A stretch of 9,268 bases of DNA, taken from positions 1-9,268 of the forward strand of contig JACPQO010000243.1 of NCBI GenBank assembly GCA_016190405.1, read 5' to 3'. The position numbers were made by a program, and so were the translations under genes. The DNA is from Chloroflexota bacterium. Its GTDB lineage: Bacteria; Chloroflexota; Dehalococcoidia; SM23-28-2; RBG-16-64-32. The notes beneath the pieces were generated by a model. That model searched no databases. It was not told the DNA's origin and saw only the letters and a program-made list of their open reading frames with translations. Positions 2 to 9,268 of this stretch are shown one piece after another; position 1 is the first letter of the stretch, and each line of letters begins with the position of its first letter.

Positions 2-2128
2 CCCTACACCGACGACCCGCTGCTGAACGTGGACCTGCTGGACGAGTCGGTAGGGGCGGACTGGGGAAGCCAGGACTACGACGCCATCAATGACGCACCG
101 GCGGACGCCCGTACCAGCCCGGAGACGACGTACAAGCGCGGCGACTACCAGCTCTACGCCTTCTCCTTCAAGTGCTCGGATATCGAGTCCCTGAAGCAGA
201 CGCTATCGGACGTGCAGGACGGCGAGCGCCGCGCTGCCTTCCGCTACGACGCCAGCGACAACGTGACGGACGGCATCTTCTCCATGGAGTTCGGCTTCAA
301 CCGGCGCTCCCGCGGGCCGGACCTGCGGCCGCGTCTGGTGCTCTTCACCAGCGGCGACCCCTACGGTACCGCCTGCGACCCGTCTACCCCGGCGACGAGC
401 ATCTCCAACGTCGGCATCCACGGTGGTTCCGCCCCCGGCTCTGTGGCCGTCACCTGGGAGACGGATGTCCCATCCGACTCGATGGTGATCTACCGCGAGC
501 AGGGGATGCCCGACTGGGTGCAGGTGGGGACGCCAGCGCGGACCAGGGTTCACGGCGTCGACGTGTTCGCCCTGGACCCCACAACGAAGTACGAGTTTGC
601 CGTGCGCTCCTCGACCTGCAACGGCGCGACGACGACGGATACCAACAACGGCGCCGGCTACAACTTCTTCCGGCCCCCCCTGCCGGAGCCGCCGACGCAG
701 GACTACTTCTTCCATGGCAACCCCACGGACGAAGCCGAGAAACTGAGTTGGTTCTTCCCTGGAGTGAAGACGACCAGTAGCCTGAGTTTCAGCACGAGCC
801 CGCCGGACAACACCGCTAGCTTGCAGCACACCACCGGCGTCGCCAATGAAGACTTCGTCACCAACCCGTTGACCGCCTGGTGGCTGGGCGACTTCTCCGG
901 CCAGTTGCGCGGGGACTTCATCTTCAGTTGGTACTGGAGCAACGCCCAGCAGGGCGACAGCGAGGTCTCCATTACAGTCTTCGCGGACCCGGACCTCGAC
1001 CTGGACCCGACCGCCGTGCAACCGGACCGCATCATTGGGCGCGGTACCATCCAGCTGCACGCCCTATCGCCGGTGCCCAGCCTGCAGACCGGCCGCGTGC
1101 ACGTGGAGGGCGTGGTCCAGAGCCAGATCCTGATCCAGGCGGCGGCCAGCGGCCTCACCGCGGAGGATCTGACGGTGCACTACGATAGCCTCCTGGCTCC
1201 ATCGAAGGTCGCCATCCCCACGGAGCTGGCGCCGATCCCGGAGAAGCTGCCGCTCACCGGCCCGGTGCCGCCGCCTTCGGCCGGCGCCAGCGGCCTCAAC
1301 CCACCGCCGACGCGAAGCGGCCCTGCCTCCTTCGTCGACATCCAGCACGGCACCTGTTACTGCGTCATCCCCGGCGGCAAGCCCGATCTGCGCGTCTCAG
1401 CGGAGGAGATCGTGTTCTCGCAGCAGAAGGTGAAGGGCGGTCAAGTGGTGGCCATTGCGGCCACGGTGCACAACGACGGCTCCGCCGACGCCGACAACGT
1501 CCAGGTCCGCTTCGATGATAACGGGACGCCCATCGGCACGCCGACCATCGTCAGCATTCCCGCCGGCGGGCTGGCTACCGTCTCCGTCAACTGGAACACC
1601 AAGGGGATCAAGGGCACGCGCACAATAACCGTTACAGCAGACCCGGCAAACGCCATCGACGAAAGCAACGAGGCGAACAACAGCGCCGCCACGACGGTGT
1701 CTGTCAAGGGCAACAAGGTGCAGAACGGCTCCTTCGAGCAGTCGTCAGACGGCGAGAAGCCTGATAAGTGGAAGGATGAGGGCAACACCCACTACAAACC
1801 GGGCGGCAGCCACGGCCAGCGCCGCGTAGAAGCCGAGTCCGACGGCTCGTGGACATCCGAGCCGATCGCCGTGGAGGCGGGCAAGACGTACGGCGTTTCT
1901 GTCGACGTCACCGGCGCCTCCGGGAACCTGGTCGTCGAACAGGTGACAACTGCCGGCGCTGTGGTGGCCAGCCTGACGCAACTGCTGCCCGTGTCAACCG
2001 ACGGGATCTTCCAGACGGCGGAGACTTTCCTGACGGTCGCGCCCGGGGTGACGGAGGTCCGGATCAGGCTGGCCGCCCCGCTGACCGGCGTGGCGACCTT
2101 CGACAACGTCTGGCTGTGGGAAGAATGA
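2..2128 (+). CDS. Secreted multi-domain surface protein with FN3-like, CARDB-like and carbohydrate-binding-like modules (5' partial)
   Basis: The reading frame is open from the first complete codon (position 2) to TGA at 2126-2128, so the start and any signal peptide lie upstream; 708 codons are visible. An internal GTG at 29 is not needed as a start. Numbering from the codon at 2, the modules are as follows. Residues ~50-120 form a beta-rich stretch ending in RPRLVLF, which resembles the end of DNRLRE-type domains (weak). Residues ~133-206 are fibronectin-III-like, with SVAVTWETD and a closing YEFAVRSS strand. Residues ~230-400 form a Trp/Phe-rich beta-sandwich I cannot assign. Residues ~406-443 are a Pro-rich linker. 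Residues 461-569 are CARDB-like, starting PDLRVSAEEI, with AATVHNDGSADADNVQVRF and the typical DESNEANN end. Residues 571-708 resemble a CBM4/9-type module, opening VQNGSFEQ and closing FDNVWLWEE. The composition is that of an extracellular binding or adhesion protein. A catalytic domain could exist in the missing N-terminus; none is seen here. Exact function is unknown. Confidence 0.85.
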   Translation, partial: PYTDDPLLNVDLLDESVGADWGSQDYDAINDAPADARTSPETTYKRGDYQLYAFSFKCSDIESLKQTLSDVQDGERRAAFRYDASDNVTDGIFSMEFGFNRRSRGPDLRPRLVLFTSGDPYGTACDPSTPATSISNVGIHGGSAPGSVAVTWETDVPSDSMVIYREQGMPDWVQVGTPARTRVHGVDVFALDPTTKYEFAVRSSTCNGATTTDTNNGAGYNFFRPPLPEPPTQDYFFHGNPTDEAEKLSWFFPGVKTTSSLSFSTSPPDNTASLQHTTGVANEDFVTNPLTAWWLGDFSGQLRGDFIFSWYWSNAQQGDSEVSITVFADPDLDLDPTAVQPDRIIGRGTIQLHALSPVPSLQTGRVHVEGVVQSQILIQAAASGLTAEDLTVHYDSLLAPSKVAIPTELAPIPEKLPLTGPVPPPSAGASGLNPPPTRSGPASFVDIQHGTCYCVIPGGKPDLRVSAEEIVFSQQKVKGGQVVAIAATVHNDGSADADNVQVRFDDNGTPIGTPTIVSIPAGGLATVSVNWNTKGIKGTRTITVTADPANAIDESNEANNSAATTVSVKGNKVQNGSFEQSSDGEKPDKWKDEGNTHYKPGGSHGQRRVEAESDGSWTSEPIAVEAGKTYGVSVDVTGASGNLVVEQVTTAGAVVASLTQLLPVSTDGIFQTAETFLTVAPGVTEVRIRLAAPLTGVATFDNVWLWEE

Positions 2129-2182
2129 GAGGTGAGGGGAAGAGCCTGTCCAGGCCAGACGGACCAGCGGTAAGGAGGTCAA

Positions 2183-5100
2183 ATGGCTTTGCTGCGACTG
2201 CTGTCAGTCCTGATTGGGCTCCTTCTTCTCTTGCCTGTGTCCATCGCGGCTTCCGCTCAGGCTGAGCGCGGGCACTATCGTCAGTTCGGTGACGCCGGGG
2301 GCTTCTTGAACATCCTGCCGCCGGGGCAGGACGGCGTCCTAAACGGCCTGGAAGCGCTGGCTGCCCAGGCGGGCCAGTACCCCCCGCACGTGCGCGACCA
2401 GCTCGGCATGTACGGCGACCTGGTGTACAACACACCCGGGCTGAGGGAAGACGAACTCGGGGCTTACTTCAAGGACGCCTCCTTCTTCGTAAGGGAGGAC
2501 GACATAGATCGCGTCTACTCGCCGACGACGGACGTAATCGTCGTGCGCGATAAGAGCTTCGGGGTGGCCCACATCTTCGGCCAGACCCGCTACGCCACGA
2601 TGTTCGCGCAGGGATACACCGGCGCCGAGGATCGCCTGTTCCTAATGGACGTCCTTCGGCACGTGGGCCGGGCCCGCCTGTCGGAGTTCCTGGGCGCCTC
2701 GCCCGCCAACGAGCAGTTGGACCGCGAGCAGCTGGCCATCGCCCCCTACACCGAAACCGACCTGAGTGACCAGCTACAGCAGGCGATCGCAGCATCGGGT
2801 GCGGAGGGGCAGGCCATCTACGGGGACCTCCTGGCCTATGTGGACGGAGTGAACCAGTACATCGAAGAAGCGCTCGCTGACCCTAGCAAACTGCCTGCCG
2901 AGTACCCAGCGCTCCAGCAGGTGCCGCTGCCCTGGAAGGCGGAGGACACCGTGGCCATCGCCTCGCTCGTGGGCGGGATCTTCGGCAAGGGCGGCGGCGG
3001 CGAACTGAGCAACCTCTGCGGACTCAAGCTCCTTGGCGACGCGACCGGCAATGCCGCGCAGGCCAGGGCCATCTTCGATGACCTGCACTTCGCCAATGAC
3101 AGGGAAGCGCCGACAACCTCACACCGGCTCGCTCCTTACATGACCGACCTGGGGCCAGTGGATCCCGCCGCGCACCCGGAGGTCGATTGCTCGACGCTGA
3201 AGCCCATCGATGACGGCCAGACATCGCTGGAAGACCTGCTGGCGGCCATCAGCGGCTCAGCAGGAGTCGTCGCCGGGCGGGGTGGTACGCACGCGGCGGG
3301 CGTGCACACGGTGGACGCGCCCTGGGGACAGTTCCAGCTGGACTTCAGCCAGGAGATGAGCAACGCGCTACTCGTATCCGGCAAGCGCACCAAGACTGGC
3401 AACCCGATCGCCGTGTTCGGACCGCAGACGGCCTACTTCATCCCGCAGTTGCTGGTGGAGAAGGACGTGCACGGTCCGGGCGTCGATGCCCGCGGCGCTG
3501 CTTTCGCCGGGACGGACCTCTATGTGCAGCTCGGCCGCGGCCCCAACTTCGCCTGGTCAGCCACGTCATCGGGCGCCGACAACATCGATCAGTGGGTGCT
3601 GAGCCTGTGCGAGCCGGGGGGCGGCCAGGCGACTCCACAGTCGATGGGGTACCTGCGCAACGGGCTCTGCGAGCCCATTGAGGCCTTCCAGCATACCCAG
3701 GTGGCGAAGCCCAGCGCCGGCGGCGTCCCGGCCGCACCCGACGTCATCCTTTCCTGGCGCGTGGAGCGGACGCAGCACTATGGCCCACTGGTGGCCAGGG
3801 GGACACTGGCAGACGGCACGCCTATCGCCGTCGCCAGCCTGCGCTCGACGTACCGGAACGAGCTGGGTTCGGCGCGGGCGTTCTATCGAATAAACAACCC
3901 GGACTACATGGCGAACGGCTTCGATTCTTTCCGCACCGCCATCAGCACGGGCGTGGACTACACGTTCAACTGGTTCTACATTGACGATCACGACATCGGC
4001 TATCAGCACTCGTGCAAGTGCCCGCAGCGGGCCCGGGGTGTCGATCCCTACCTGCCAGTCTCGGGTACCGGCCAGTGGGACTGGCGGGGCTACATCCCGC
4101 CGTCCGCGCAGCCCTGGGACCTGAACCCACCTAAGGGGTACATAACGTCCTGGAACAACAAGCAAGCGCCGGGCTTCATGGCCAACGACCGGGAGTTCTC
4201 CTACGGCCCGACGTACCGCGACCAGATGCTCAACATCCGCATCGAGGCGGCCATCGCTGCCGGCAAGATCGACCGTGCCGCGCTCGTGGACGCCATGGAG
4301 GACGCGGGCACCGTGGACCTGCGCGGCCAGGAGGATCTGCCGCTGCTCTTGCAGGCCCTGGGACCTACGGCCCCGGCCGGCGTCGATCCTCGCGCTCAGG
4401 AGATGCGCGACCGGCTGGCCGGCTGGGCGGCGGCCGGCGCCCACCGCCGGGACTACGATCACGATGGCCAGTACGATGATCCGCAGTCCCCGGCGATCAT
4501 GGACGCCTGGTGGCCGCGGCTGGCCCGCGCCATCTTCGATGACACATCGCTGGGCGCGCTCGACAAGCTCGGCATCGAGCTAGACGATGGCAACCGGCTC
4601 ATCCACCGGGGCTCCGCCTTCCAGGACGGGGTCTACGGGCATGTGAACAAGGACCTGCGGCAGGTACTGCGGCTGCCGGTGGAAGACCCATGGTCGCGGA
4701 CATACTGCGGCGGCAGCCTGGCCGCTTGCCGGTCGGCCCTGTGGCAATCGCTGGGCCAGGCAGCGGCTGACCTGGCAGCGGAGTTCGGCACCGCCAACGT
4801 GGCCGACTGGCGTCGCCAGATGTCATACGAGGATGTCCGCCACTCTCCCGTGGGCGTGACCACCGTGCCGGCGATCCACTGGATCAACCGGCCGACGTTC
4901 CAGCAGGTGGTGCAAATAGACATGCCAGAGGTCGTGGCGCGCAGTTCTGGGGCCGGTTCGCTGAGCCGCGCGGACGGGAAGAAGATCGGCTTCACCTACG
5001 GCGTGCAGGCCTACGCCGGCGGCGGCGGCCAGGGCGAGTTCCGCCTGACCGATGCCGCCGGGAAGCACAAGATAGACGTGGAGCAGATCGTCAGCGCTGG

Positions 5101-5365
5101 CAGTCCGGCGGCCGGCCCGTGCGGGGTTGTTCCGGCGGGGGCGCCGCACAGCTTTGAGTTCACAGGCAGCGGTACGTTCGACTCGGCATCTGGCGTTACG
5201 GTCCATGTTTGCGTTCAGGACACCGCCGACCCCGGCAAGGGCGTCGATCTCATGCACGTCGATTGCGCTGGCTGTCCGTACACGACCTCCCCTCCAGCCA
5301 CATCGGAGGTGCTGAGCGGCGGCAACCTCAAGGTTTCGCTGCTGGCGGCGCCGGAGAGTCGCTAA
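2183..5365 (+). CDS. Secreted penicillin acylase family Ntn-hydrolase
   Basis: This is an N-terminal-nucleophile amidohydrolase of the penicillin/AHL acylase superfamily, made as a precursor and expected to self-cleave into alpha and beta chains outside the cytoplasm. The ATG at 2183 follows AAGGAGGT (2172-2179). A signal peptide covers residues 1-25 or 1-27, with R5, a Leu-rich core and the end ASAQA. The alpha-chain signature spans ~111-171 (GVAHIFG, FAQGYTGAEDRLFLMDVLR, GRARLSEFLG). The predicted nucleophile is Ser393 in EMSNALLVSG, so cleavage would fall after Met392. The oxyanion-hole Asn is probably in SWNNKQAPGF (N658/N659), and WSATSSG (458-464) is the second oxyanion region. DYDHDGQYDD (757-766) looks like a calcium loop, and WINRPTFQQVV (900-910) is a late family motif. 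At 1060 aa it is longer than typical 750-850 aa acylases and resembles the long actinobacterial-type subgroup. The last ~110 residues form an extra Cys-containing beta-rich domain. It is probably co-transcribed with the gene 54 nt upstream. The substrate cannot be deduced: beta-lactam, AHL or another amide. Confidence 0.92.
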   Translation: MALLRLLSVLIGLLLLLPVSIAASAQAERGHYRQFGDAGGFLNILPPGQDGVLNGLEALAAQAGQYPPHVRDQLGMYGDLVYNTPGLREDELGAYFKDASFFVREDDIDRVYSPTTDVIVVRDKSFGVAHIFGQTRYATMFAQGYTGAEDRLFLMDVLRHVGRARLSEFLGASPANEQLDREQLAIAPYTETDLSDQLQQAIAASGAEGQAIYGDLLAYVDGVNQYIEEALADPSKLPAEYPALQQVPLPWKAEDTVAIASLVGGIFGKGGGGELSNLCGLKLLGDATGNAAQARAIFDDLHFANDREAPTTSHRLAPYMTDLGPVDPAAHPEVDCSTLKPIDDGQTSLEDLLAAISGSAGVVAGRGGTHAAGVHTVDAPWGQFQLDFSQEMSNALLVSGKRTKTGNPIAVFGPQTAYFIPQLLVEKDVHGPGVDARGAAFAGTDLYVQLGRGPNFAWSATSSGADNIDQWVLSLCEPGGGQATPQSMGYLRNGLCEPIEAFQHTQVAKPSAGGVPAAPDVILSWRVERTQHYGPLVARGTLADGTPIAVASLRSTYRNELGSARAFYRINNPDYMANGFDSFRTAISTGVDYTFNWFYIDDHDIGYQHSCKCPQRARGVDPYLPVSGTGQWDWRGYIPPSAQPWDLNPPKGYITSWNNKQAPGFMANDREFSYGPTYRDQMLNIRIEAAIAAGKIDRAALVDAMEDAGTVDLRGQEDLPLLLQALGPTAPAGVDPRAQEMRDRLAGWAAAGAHRRDYDHDGQYDDPQSPAIMDAWWPRLARAIFDDTSLGALDKLGIELDDGNRLIHRGSAFQDGVYGHVNKDLRQVLRLPVEDPWSRTYCGGSLAACRSALWQSLGQAAADLAAEFGTANVADWRRQMSYEDVRHSPVGVTTVPAIHWINRPTFQQVVQIDMPEVVARSSGAGSLSRADGKKIGFTYGVQAYAGGGGQGEFRLTDAAGKHKIDVEQIVSAGSPAAGPCGVVPAGAPHSFEFTGSGTFDSASGVTVHVCVQDTADPGKGVDLMHVDCAGCPYTTSPPATSEVLSGGNLKVSLLAAPESR

Positions 5366-6544: not shown

Positions 6545-8110
6545 ATGAGCGCCAGTGTTGAACTGCCTCCGGCAATCGGGACGGGAGTCGCAACCGCGCG
6601 GCCGTTGACGCGGCGCCTTGCCGAGGCAGCGTTGCTCGTGTTGGTCTGCCTCGTGCCGGTCCTGTTCTTCTCGCTTTTCTGGAGCACGCCCTTCGAGCGT
6701 GACGAGGGCGTATACGCCACCGTCGCCCAGGGGCTGCTCGACGGCAGGATTCCCTACCGTGACCTGTTCGATAACAAGCCACCGCTGGTCTACGACTGGT
6801 ACGCCTTCAGCTTCTTGCTGTTTGGCGAGACGGTGTCGGCGCCGCGGATCGTGGCGGCAGTGCTCCTTTCGTTCACCACCCTCGCCGTCTACGCGCAAGC
6901 CCGGATGCTGCTGACTCGCGCCCTCGCTTACATGGCCGCCGGTATCTTTGCCGTCTCCACCGGCCTTCCCTTCGTTGCCCTTCACGCCAACACGGAAGCC
7001 TACATGCTCCTGCCGCTGGTCACCTCCCTGCTGGCGTTCACCCAGGGAATCCGAAGCGGCCGCGTCATCTGGTTCTTCCTCGCCGGCTTCCTCGCCGCAC
7101 TAGCGATGCTGACCAAGCAAGTGGCCGTGTGGAACCTCGCCGCGCTGGTGCTGGTCGGTAGCTGGTGGCGCTGGCGAAATCCGGATCGCTCCTGGCGCGT
7201 TATCGGCCCGGCCCTGTCCACGCTGGCCGGAGCCGCGCTCGCCCTTTCACTCGGCGCGCTGCCGTTCATAGTGAGCGGCGCCCTGTCCGATTTCATCTAC
7301 GCCAACGTCCTCTACAACTACCGGTACGTGGGGATCCTGTCCACCGCCCAGCGTCTGTTCATCCTGAAGAGGACCCTCCTTTTCCTGGCGTTCTTCATGG
7401 CCCTCGCCGGCCCTCTGATCATCGGCGCCCTCATCGGGTTCGTGACCGCGCTGCGCCCCCGCAGATCGTGGCCCTGGTACGCCTTCCTGGCGTGGACCGT
7501 TGCTTCCGGCCTCGGCGTGGCGATGGGCGCCCGGTTCTATCCCCACTACTTCCTTCAGCTCCTGCCCGCCATGGCCATCCTGTCGACCGTGGCCATCCAG
7601 CGGCTGATGGAAGGGCGCCGCCCGACCATGCTGAGAAGCGGCCTCCTTCTCCTCACCGGACTCACGGTCGTGGTGTTCCTGGTCACCAACGCGCTGCTGT
7701 ACTTATCCCCTGACGCCACCGAGAAGCGCTTCTCGGAGAGCGCCTACTACCAGAAGCAGTGGGAGAAGCAGAGTAGAGCTCTGGCAGCCTACGTCGCGGA
7801 CCGGACTCCCCCGGACCAGGAGATCTTCAACTACGGGCGCGAGGCCCAGCTCTACTTCTACGCCGACCGGCTCCCGGCCGCCAGATACTTCTACGACTGG
7901 GCTTACGTCTACGACGAGAGCACTTTGCCGCAGACCATCGAACAGCTGCGCCGCGACCCGCCTCTGTACATCGTCGACTCCGTCCGGCCCCCTCTCTTCC
8001 AGGACGCGGACCGTCACGCGGCGTTCGACGCCTTTCTCGAGGAACGTTACGAATACGTGGGCCGCGTCGAGTTCGCTGACGTGTACCGGCTGAGCGGAAA
8101 CCCTCGTTGA
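6545..8110 (+). CDS. Polytopic membrane glycosyltransferase, GT39/ArnT-like (PMT_2 type)
   Basis: A 521-aa GT-C fold membrane enzyme, expected to transfer a sugar from a polyprenyl-phosphate donor to a lipid, glycan or protein at the outer face of the cytoplasmic membrane. The first membrane segment (~27-46) is followed by the family's extracytoplasmic catalytic loop FERDEGVYATVAQGLLDGR (50-68), with the D53-E54 pair. IPYRDLFDNKPPLVY (69-83) comes next. About ten further hydrophobic segments lie between ~97 and ~388, including ARFYPHYFLQLLPAMAIL (~328-345), a motif I associate with GT39 proteins of Chloroflexota. The last ~130 residues are soluble (EIFNYGREAQLYFYADRLP, then LYIVDS) and end in a small alpha/beta domain seen in relatives. 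Length is normal for the family. No dedicated partner such as a polyprenyl-phosphate sugar synthase is next to it, so the acceptor is unknown. The start is the only ATG after an in-frame stop; its Shine-Dalgarno is oddly close. Confidence 0.9.
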   Translation: MSASVELPPAIGTGVATARPLTRRLAEAALLVLVCLVPVLFFSLFWSTPFERDEGVYATVAQGLLDGRIPYRDLFDNKPPLVYDWYAFSFLLFGETVSAPRIVAAVLLSFTTLAVYAQARMLLTRALAYMAAGIFAVSTGLPFVALHANTEAYMLLPLVTSLLAFTQGIRSGRVIWFFLAGFLAALAMLTKQVAVWNLAALVLVGSWWRWRNPDRSWRVIGPALSTLAGAALALSLGALPFIVSGALSDFIYANVLYNYRYVGILSTAQRLFILKRTLLFLAFFMALAGPLIIGALIGFVTALRPRRSWPWYAFLAWTVASGLGVAMGARFYPHYFLQLLPAMAILSTVAIQRLMEGRRPTMLRSGLLLLTGLTVVVFLVTNALLYLSPDATEKRFSESAYYQKQWEKQSRALAAYVADRTPPDQEIFNYGREAQLYFYADRLPAARYFYDWAYVYDESTLPQTIEQLRRDPPLYIVDSVRPPLFQDADRHAAFDAFLEERYEYVGRVEFADVYRLSGNPR

Positions 8111-8188: not shown

Positions 8189-9268
8189 ATGGTGGCGTGT
8201 CCATCATGCGGCTCCGAGAACCGTGACGATGCCACATTCTGCGGCGAGTGCGGATGCGCACTGGTCGCCGAATGGGTGTGTCCCGCCTGCCGCCGCAACA
8301 ACCCCCGCGGCCGGAAGTTCTGTGATGCCTGCGGACACCGCCTCGGCGATGCCCCGCCCTCAGGGCCCCCGCCAACCCCCCAGCCTTCCCCAGCCCTCCC
8401 CACCTCCTTCGCCGGCGGCCGCTACCAGGTCCAGCGCTTCCTGGGCGAGGGCGGCCGCAAGCGCGTCTATCTCGCGCACGACACGAAGCTCGACCGCGAC
8501 GTAGCCATCGCCGTCATCAAGACCGAGGGCCTGGACGCCGACGGGCTGACTCGCGTCCGGCGCGAGGCCCAGGCCATGGGCCGCCTGGGCGACCATCCCC
8601 ACATCGTCACCGTCTTTGACATCGGCGATGAGGCCGGCCAGCCCTACATAGTTTCCCAGTACATGGCGGGTGGTGATCTGGAGGGACTGCTGCAGCAGGC
8701 GGAGAACCATCGACTCGCTCTGACCCGCGCCCTACGCATCGCCGACCAGGTCCGTCAGGCCCTAGGGCACGCACACGACAGGGGCATAATCCATCGCGAC
8801 CTAAAGCCCGGCAACATCTGGCTGACCGAGGAGGGCACTGCCAAGCTGGGCGACTTCGGCCTGGCCGTGGCGTTAGACCGCTCGCGGCTCACGGTGGAAG
8901 GGATGATGGTGGGCACGGTGGCCTATATGGCGCCGGAGCAGGCGTTAGGACGCCAACCCGACGCTCGTAGCGACCTCTACTCCCTGGGCTGCGTCCTCTA
9001 CGAGATGGTGACCGGCCGCCCGCCCTTCCTGGGCGACGACGCCGTGGCCATCATCTCGCAGCACATCAACACGGCGCCGGTAGCCCCCAGCTGGCACAAC
9101 CCGGAGGTGCCCAGGGCCTTCGAGGCCCTCATCGTGCGGCTGCTGGCCAAGGCGCCGGAGGAGCGACCGGAGAGCGCCGCCGCTGTGCTGGAGGTGATGA
9201 AAGCCATCATGGAGACGGCCTCGACCGTGGCGGGGCGGGCGGTGCAGGAGGAGGCGAACCCCCTGGAC
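8189..9268 (+). CDS. Double-zinc-ribbon Ser/Thr protein kinase with relocated lysine (3' partial)
   Basis: Open from ATG 8189 (GGAGGG at 8177-8182, 6 nt spacing) to the window edge; 360 codons are seen. Residues 1-52 form a double zinc ribbon with four CxxC knuckles (C4/C7, C18/C21, C31/C34, C45/C48). A Pro-rich linker (~53-72) follows, then a protein kinase domain (~77-340). Kinase motifs: glycine loop LGEGGRKRVY (85-94); VAIAVIK (105-111); helix-C Glu126 in RREAQAM; catalytic loop HRDLKPGN (202-209, Asp204); DFG 222-224; APE 248-250; SDLYSLGCVLYEM after it. The VAIK lysine is Ala108. Lys91 occupies the third-glycine position, and Lys111 lies three residues downstream. The other catalytic residues are intact, so activity is likely. 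From memory, relatives in Chloroflexota continue into an AAA-type ATPase region; the visible end ANPLD would fit, but this is inference. No transmembrane segment is seen, so it is probably cytoplasmic. The 78-nt gap before it has only a small inverted repeat, CGCTTTAGCG (8120-8129). Confidence 0.93.
   Translation, partial: MVACPSCGSENRDDATFCGECGCALVAEWVCPACRRNNPRGRKFCDACGHRLGDAPPSGPPPTPQPSPALPTSFAGGRYQVQRFLGEGGRKRVYLAHDTKLDRDVAIAVIKTEGLDADGLTRVRREAQAMGRLGDHPHIVTVFDIGDEAGQPYIVSQYMAGGDLEGLLQQAENHRLALTRALRIADQVRQALGHAHDRGIIHRDLKPGNIWLTEEGTAKLGDFGLAVALDRSRLTVEGMMVGTVAYMAPEQALGRQPDARSDLYSLGCVLYEMVTGRPPFLGDDAVAIISQHINTAPVAPSWHNPEVPRAFEALIVRLLAKAPEERPESAAAVLEVMKAIMETASTVAGRAVQEEANPLD

Follow-up and report, generated by a model that had tools for sequence, protein, structure and literature searches.

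The kinase gene and its motifs

The window analysed here is the whole stretch of 9,268 nucleotides of contig JACPQO010000243.1 from a Chloroflexota bacterium, and at its 3′ end it carries the gene for a protein kinase that is the subject of this study (Table 1). The gene is cut, because the reading frame from either of its possible start codons reaches the end of the window without a stop, and of the protein's domains just the zinc ribbons and the kinase lie within the window. Residue numbers given below are counted from the ATG at position 8189; the database protein P0001 begins at the GTG at position 8192, and its numbers are therefore one lower (K90, A107, K110 and E125). The sequence-only reading of this DNA had placed a lysine, Lys91, where the third glycine of the glycine loop is expected, and an alanine, Ala108, where the ATP-anchoring lysine of strand beta3 should stand, and direct reading of the sequence confirmed both. 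The window kinase thus carries the two features of the WNK type, a lysine at the third-glycine site and the absence of the beta3 lysine that is expected of bacterial PknB-like kinases. The HRD, DFG and APE motifs and the helix-C glutamate, which had also been noted, are present both in the window and in the family alignment, and a kinase fold with these elements is that of the bacterial PknB-like Ser/Thr kinases.

Table 1. Features of the kinase gene in the window
Feature	Position	Strand	Evidence or remark
Kinase gene, truncated at its 3′ end by the window	8189..9268	+	ATG 8189 or GTG 8192; 360 codons present
Double zinc ribbon, DZR PF12773	8198..8335	+	43.9 bits, P0001 residues 3-48
Protein kinase domain, PF00069	8423..9181	+	Pfam Pkinase 173.5 bits, P0001 residues 78-330
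Glycine loop LGEGGRKRVY	8441..8470	+	Direct read of the window sequence and alignment of relatives
Lys91 (aag), third-glycine site, proposed ATP-anchoring lysine	8459..8461	+	Lys in 328/329 domains without beta3 lysine
Ala108 (gcc), canonical beta3-lysine site of VAIA	8510..8512	+	Sixth residue of predicted beta3
Lys111 (aag), rival candidate, not required	8519..8521	+	Just after predicted beta3
Helix-C Glu126 (gag)	8564..8566	+	Glu in 328/328 readable members
HRD catalytic motif	8792..8800	+	Asp in 322/322 readable members
DFG motif (WNK1: DLG)	8852..8860	+	Asp in 321/321, Phe in 320/321 readable members
APE motif	8930..8938	+	Glu in 320/321 readable members

Reciprocal distribution of the two lysines

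For the survey of relatives we used the best 120 of 7662 relatives from a protein search, together with 79 loci retained from 142 encoding stretches of a genome collection. Two added protein searches, with a divergent member and with the sister clade described below as queries, brought the set to 355 proteins and 210 loci in all, each protein search contributing the best 120 of several thousand matches. These gave 579 domain rows, of which 560 were distinct and 549 had both lysine sites readable. The 11 distinct rows dropped, mostly fragments, had a loop or beta3 site that was not fully readable; among them, the partly readable P0226 fits the family pattern and P0219 the canonical pattern.

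The two lysines replace each other across this collection. A lysine at the glycine site with none at beta3 was found in 328 of the 549 distinct kinase domains, hereafter the members of the family, and the reverse pattern in 220; no domain carried both lysines, and a single one (L070) had neither in register. At the beta3 site the 328 members have alanine (306), serine (15), glycine (6) or valine (1). With L070 included, the domains that lack a beta3 lysine number 329 (A 307, S 15, G 6, V 1; Lys 0/329), whereas the 220 beta3-lysine kinases have glycine (180), alanine (32), serine (7) or threonine (1) at the glycine site. Lysine occupied the glycine site in 119 of 119 alignable sequences of the 120 relatives listed first, and the beta3 site in none of the 120; the arrangement in the window is therefore neither a chance substitution nor a sequencing slip.

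The alignment proposed as a check of the conservation of Lys91 and Ala108 accordingly upheld both, with lysine at the former site in 328 of the 329 domains and alanine, serine, glycine or valine at the latter in all 329. The trait is thus family-wide, as had been supposed, whereas the GEGG[KR]K string offered as its hallmark did not hold, since the residues around the lysine vary. The residue before it is lysine or arginine in 213 of 221 cases, the remainder having T, S, H, L, M or Q; in members whose residue 111 is non-basic, Q or R usually stands in place of the loop glutamate. It is the lysine itself, rather than the string, that is nearly invariant.

Predicted strands and catalytic motifs

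The AlphaFold2 model of the window protein had a mean predicted local distance difference test score (pLDDT) of 85.8, with the blocks covering residues 81-110 at 88-96. In P0001 numbers, beta2 was predicted at 90-97, beta3 at 102-109 and helix C at 116-131, so that K90 is the first residue of beta2, A107 the sixth of beta3, and K110 lies just past beta3. The canonical control L181 (mean pLDDT 88.0), with beta2 at 38-45 and beta3 at 50-57, likewise has its lysine, residue 55, as the sixth of beta3, and the residue three places after that lysine sits just past the strand, as K110 does in P0001. No register shift of beta3 was seen when the AlphaFold2 strands of the window protein were compared with those of L181.

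The remaining machinery is conserved in the 329 domains lacking the beta3 lysine: wherever readable, His, Arg and Asp of HRD were each present in 322 of 322, the catalytic-loop Lys in 321 of 322, and the catalytic-loop Asn and the activation-segment Thr each in 321 of 321. In 97 of the 120 relatives listed first, PPE stands in place of APE. Because the catalytic motifs and the helix-C Glu are so strongly conserved, enzyme activity of the family is likely.

Phylogenetic position

Trees were made with FastTree after removal of the focal columns, using representatives thinned at 85% identity (553 to 290) and including no WNK sequence. The members with the moved lysine formed one clade, the sister of which is a clade of AAA-linked bacterial kinases in which the beta3 lysine is retained. 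This sister clade, the L161/P0236 group, resembles the family in its architecture, as L161 consists of a kinase followed by AAA_16, and AAA_16 and TPR appear in many precomputed Pfam lists for the group; it differs in having the beta3 lysine and no lysine at the third-glycine site. Its motif at the DFG position is DLG or DMG in 43 of 43 tree representatives. The closest matches of the family, by sequence and by structure, were the bacterial kinases StkP, PknB and Stk1, and the WNK1 structure (PDB 5w7t) was also among the structure matches. Because the moved lysine defines one bacterial clade with beta3-lysine kinases as its sister, the family looks like a case of convergence on the WNK lysine arrangement by a separate evolutionary route. 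The relocation and the convergence proposed from the window alone are both supported by the reciprocal swap, the single bacterial clade and the beta3-lysine sister.

Alternative explanations

The data show directly that the two lysines replace each other, that the pattern is conserved, that its bearers form one clade in the trees made, that beta3 is predicted in its usual register and that the catalytic motifs are intact. Our interpretation is that an active bacterial Ser/Thr kinase had its ATP-anchoring lysine moved once from beta3 to beta2, where Lys91 would pair with Glu126 and the phosphates of ATP. We regard this as highly probable. The sequence-only reading had named Lys111 as the competing anchor, which would be brought into place by a register shift of beta3. 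Residue 111 is K in 224, R in 10, D in 84, E in 5, S in 3, N in 1 and V in 1 of the 328 members, and a basic residue is thus favoured in most of the family (234 of 328, against 42 of the 220 beta3-lysine kinases). The other 94 members nevertheless all retain Lys91; their 32 tree representatives form a single clade (Shimodaira-Hasegawa, SH, support 1.0), and those with a named organism belong to Solirubrobacterales or other Actinomycetota. Because these members do without Lys or Arg at 111, and because the predicted strand boundaries agree with those of the canonical control, Lys111 is excluded as the anchor with hardly any doubt left; in most members residue 111 may contribute in some way, but the kinase can do without it. 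It is also conceivable that no lysine fills the beta3 role and that Lys91 serves otherwise, for instance by gripping the gamma phosphate or the substrate, since the glycine loop overlies the phosphates in kinases and would permit such roles. This is very unlikely in view of the exclusive swap, without a single domain of 549 bearing both lysines, and of the helix-C Glu, which is retained in every readable member; the two together are as predicted for a salt-bridge partner that has moved.

A pseudokinase, in which Lys91 binds the nucleotide without phosphate transfer, would be the verdict of the rule that takes the beta3 lysine as a mark of activity (PMC12599244; this and the other papers cited by PMC number are drawn on from excerpts). 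The HRD Asp, the catalytic-loop Lys and Asn, the DFG Asp, the helix-C Glu and the activation-segment Thr are, however, each kept in every readable member or missing from just one, whereas the motifs of the pseudokinase families in the excerpted text of PMC12599244 are degraded, so that we consider a pseudokinase unlikely. The identity of the lysine arrangement with that of WNK might also be explained by acquisition of a true WNK relative from a eukaryote; with bacterial kinases as the best matches in sequence and structure, and a bacterial sister clade with the beta3 lysine in a tree that holds no WNK sequence, the probability of this origin is close to nil.

Several observations weigh against the interpretation of one stable relocation resembling that of WNK. 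The loop of L070 reads GEGGKERVY, so that Glu takes the site of the moved lysine and a Lys directly precedes it. Support for the family node was only moderate (SH 0.727 in one tree and 0.896 in another), and canonical PknB-like structures fit the AlphaFold2 model better than WNK1 does. Moreover, the members were gathered by member queries from the best 120 matches of each protein search, and outliers may exist beyond them.

As to L070 itself (637-4587), it has a long insert before the catalytic loop and could be either an inactive copy or the product of a misassembly.

Whole proteins, distribution and copies

In six whole relatives examined with Pfam, zinc ribbon, kinase and AAA_16 were found in all six (the zinc ribbon of L069 being under the cut-off), TPR was over the cut-off in three with weaker matches in the other three, and a class III adenylate/guanylate cyclase domain was C-terminal in four. 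Fifty family frames lie with both of their stops within the locus; of these, 22 were 1267-1329 amino acids (aa) in length, 17 were 1447-1528 aa and 11 fell outside these ranges. L041 (7938-10574) differs in build, with zinc ribbon, kinase, cyclase and SPOR, AAA_16 not being found by the Pfam scan; L051 (7962-10625) has loop and beta3 motifs as in L041 and a similar length.

By record title, the 79 loci are mostly from Chloroflexota, with some from Actinobacteria and Deltaproteobacteria/Myxococcota and one from Acidobacteria. L031, a family member in a metagenome-assembled genome titled Euryarchaeota archaeon, may reflect a binning error. Prevalence was counted in genomes from the phyla of four centre genomes, the centre included, and the counts are lower bounds because scoring was limited to 6, 10, 8 and 10 candidates per genome in the L001, L069, L052 and L041 samples, respectively. 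Family members were found in at least 4 of 301 genomes for L001 (E up to 1e-70), at least 1 of 199 for L069, at least 7 of 246 for L052 (rows of at least 320 bits) and at least 3 of 198 for L041 (E up to 1e-62). The members stood apart by score: 392 bits for the family member against 216 for the next kinase in the L069 sample, and 320 bits for the lowest member against 236 for the next kinase in the L052 sample. A tblastn search of plasmids gave 947 records, all under 60% identity, with no family member among the 40 matches listed, which reach no more than 46.2%.

Some genomes carry several copies. Five (L202, L204, L206, L208 and L210) lie within about 35 kb of contig C23 of genome G899 (257369-291908), which has seven genome-wide, and loci L006, L061, L065 and L079 hold two each. 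On contig C6 of genome G002 (11141-22145), two large frames adjoin the kinase gene of the family; they resemble P0001 at its zinc-ribbon end and also match the non-kinase part of TIGR03903 (TOMM_kin_cyc). Three whole relatives scored 322.7, 298.3 and 303.3 bits with TIGR03903, against its curated cut-off of 705.75, and the part in the window scored 125.5 bits, also under that cut-off. A TIGR03903 search of 140 genomes of the G002 phylum led to 30 fetched loci and 15 domains with both sites readable, and in the profile alignment all 15, L132, L133 and L142 included, had the normal beta3 lysine. Matches of PADLOC (PD-T4-6, mad6 and others) look like general kinase matches and carry no information on defence.

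Other genes of the window

The window begins within a gene (2-2128) for the C-terminal part of a CARDB-domain protein (PF07705, 68.4 bits), cut by the window start, followed at 2183-5365 by one for a penicillin amidase family protein of 1060 aa (PF01804, 350.7 bits), which towards its end also matches post-COAP-1, though under the cut-off. Upstream of the kinase gene lie genes for a small RRM RNA-binding protein (PF00076; 6132-6476) and a PMT_2 mannosyltransferase-like protein (6545-8110), neither with a visible link to the kinase.

Comparison with known kinases

The WNKs were described in 2007 as the only functional eukaryotic protein kinase family without the beta3 lysine (PMC1821047). The family described here shares with WNK1 the third-glycine lysine, the lack of the beta3 lysine and the helix-C Glu. 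It differs from the WNKs in being PknB-like, in having DFG instead of DLG and Ala, Ser or Gly instead of Cys at the beta3 site, and in its zinc ribbons and AAA_16, TPR and cyclase partners. POMK (SGK196) was recognised later than the 2007 statement on the WNKs. There too the beta3 lysine has migrated to beta2, where it is required for activity, and a swap of the lysine between the sites increased the activity of POMK (PMC10211241). POMK differs, however, in that it also lacks the canonical HRD and DFG and phosphorylates a sugar. The CAK-chloro kinases are a choline/aminoglycoside-kinase-like family. For them, Kannan and colleagues proposed in 2007 a shift of positive charge from position 72 to 55, but with Arg at 55, Met at 72 and Phe in place of the helix-C Glu (PMC1821047). 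The CP1 kinases of O'Boyle, Kannan and colleagues are also tied to a predicted ATPase, in their case COG3899, where the six whole relatives scanned here carry AAA_16; about 40% lack a catalytic residue, and they are reported mainly from cyanobacteria and proteobacteria (PMC12599244). In the excerpts of that paper the losses in CP1 are varied and no common lysine shift is described. The DLHK family combines the absence of the beta3 lysine with conserved arginines in beta2, yet has a degraded metal-binding motif (PMC12599244). The same excerpts, which cite the WNKs, describe no bacterial family with a lysine shift, and we found no description of the moved-lysine family in the open-access literature, a search to which the 2025 bacterial kinase atlas did not belong. 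The relocation itself is thus known from WNK and POMK, and the bacterial family is apparently new, though the 2025 atlas may already group it.

Proposed mechanism and its meaning

We propose that the window encodes the N-terminal portion, zinc ribbon and kinase, of a bacterial Ser/Thr kinase whose whole relatives continue with AAA_16 NTPase, TPR and often cyclase. In a bacterial ancestor, a single event would have transferred the ATP-anchoring lysine from beta3 to the start of beta2, from where Lys91 would reach into the pocket, pair with the helix-C Glu126 and hold the alpha and beta phosphates of ATP, the small residue (Ala, Ser or Gly) at 108 making room for it. The kinase would be active, as WNK kinases are, and may act together with the NTPase, TPR and cyclase parts as a signal integrator.

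An ion- or ligand-sensitive switch had been suggested on the strength of the lysine arrangement; in its WNK form, as a chloride sensor, it is not supported by the comparison. In WNK1, chloride is bound via Gly370 and Leu371, with contacts to Phe283, Leu299, Leu369 and Leu371, and the L369F mutant shows increased autophosphorylation and is described as chloride-insensitive (PMC7606576, PMC13397483). Because the place of Leu369, in the DLG motif, is taken by Phe in the window kinase and in 320 of 321 readable members, WNK-style control by chloride is unlikely in the bacterial family. One could go further and suppose that this WNK-independent relocation in active kinases emptied the beta3 corner of the ATP pocket for regulatory use, with an ion, a water molecule or a small ligand (though not chloride in the WNK manner) acting there in concert with the NTPase, TPR and cyclase parts; this is speculative, and we give it little weight.

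Since the sister clade has DLG or DMG together with the normal lysine, each of the two sisters carries one of the WNK traits. The lysine shift is thus separable from chloride sensing, the family having the shift without the DLG leucine and its sister DLG with a normal lysine. A bacterial clade of hundreds of sequences would show that the lysine shift can arise independently and remain stable, and kinases that the beta3-lysine rule marks as dead may be active.
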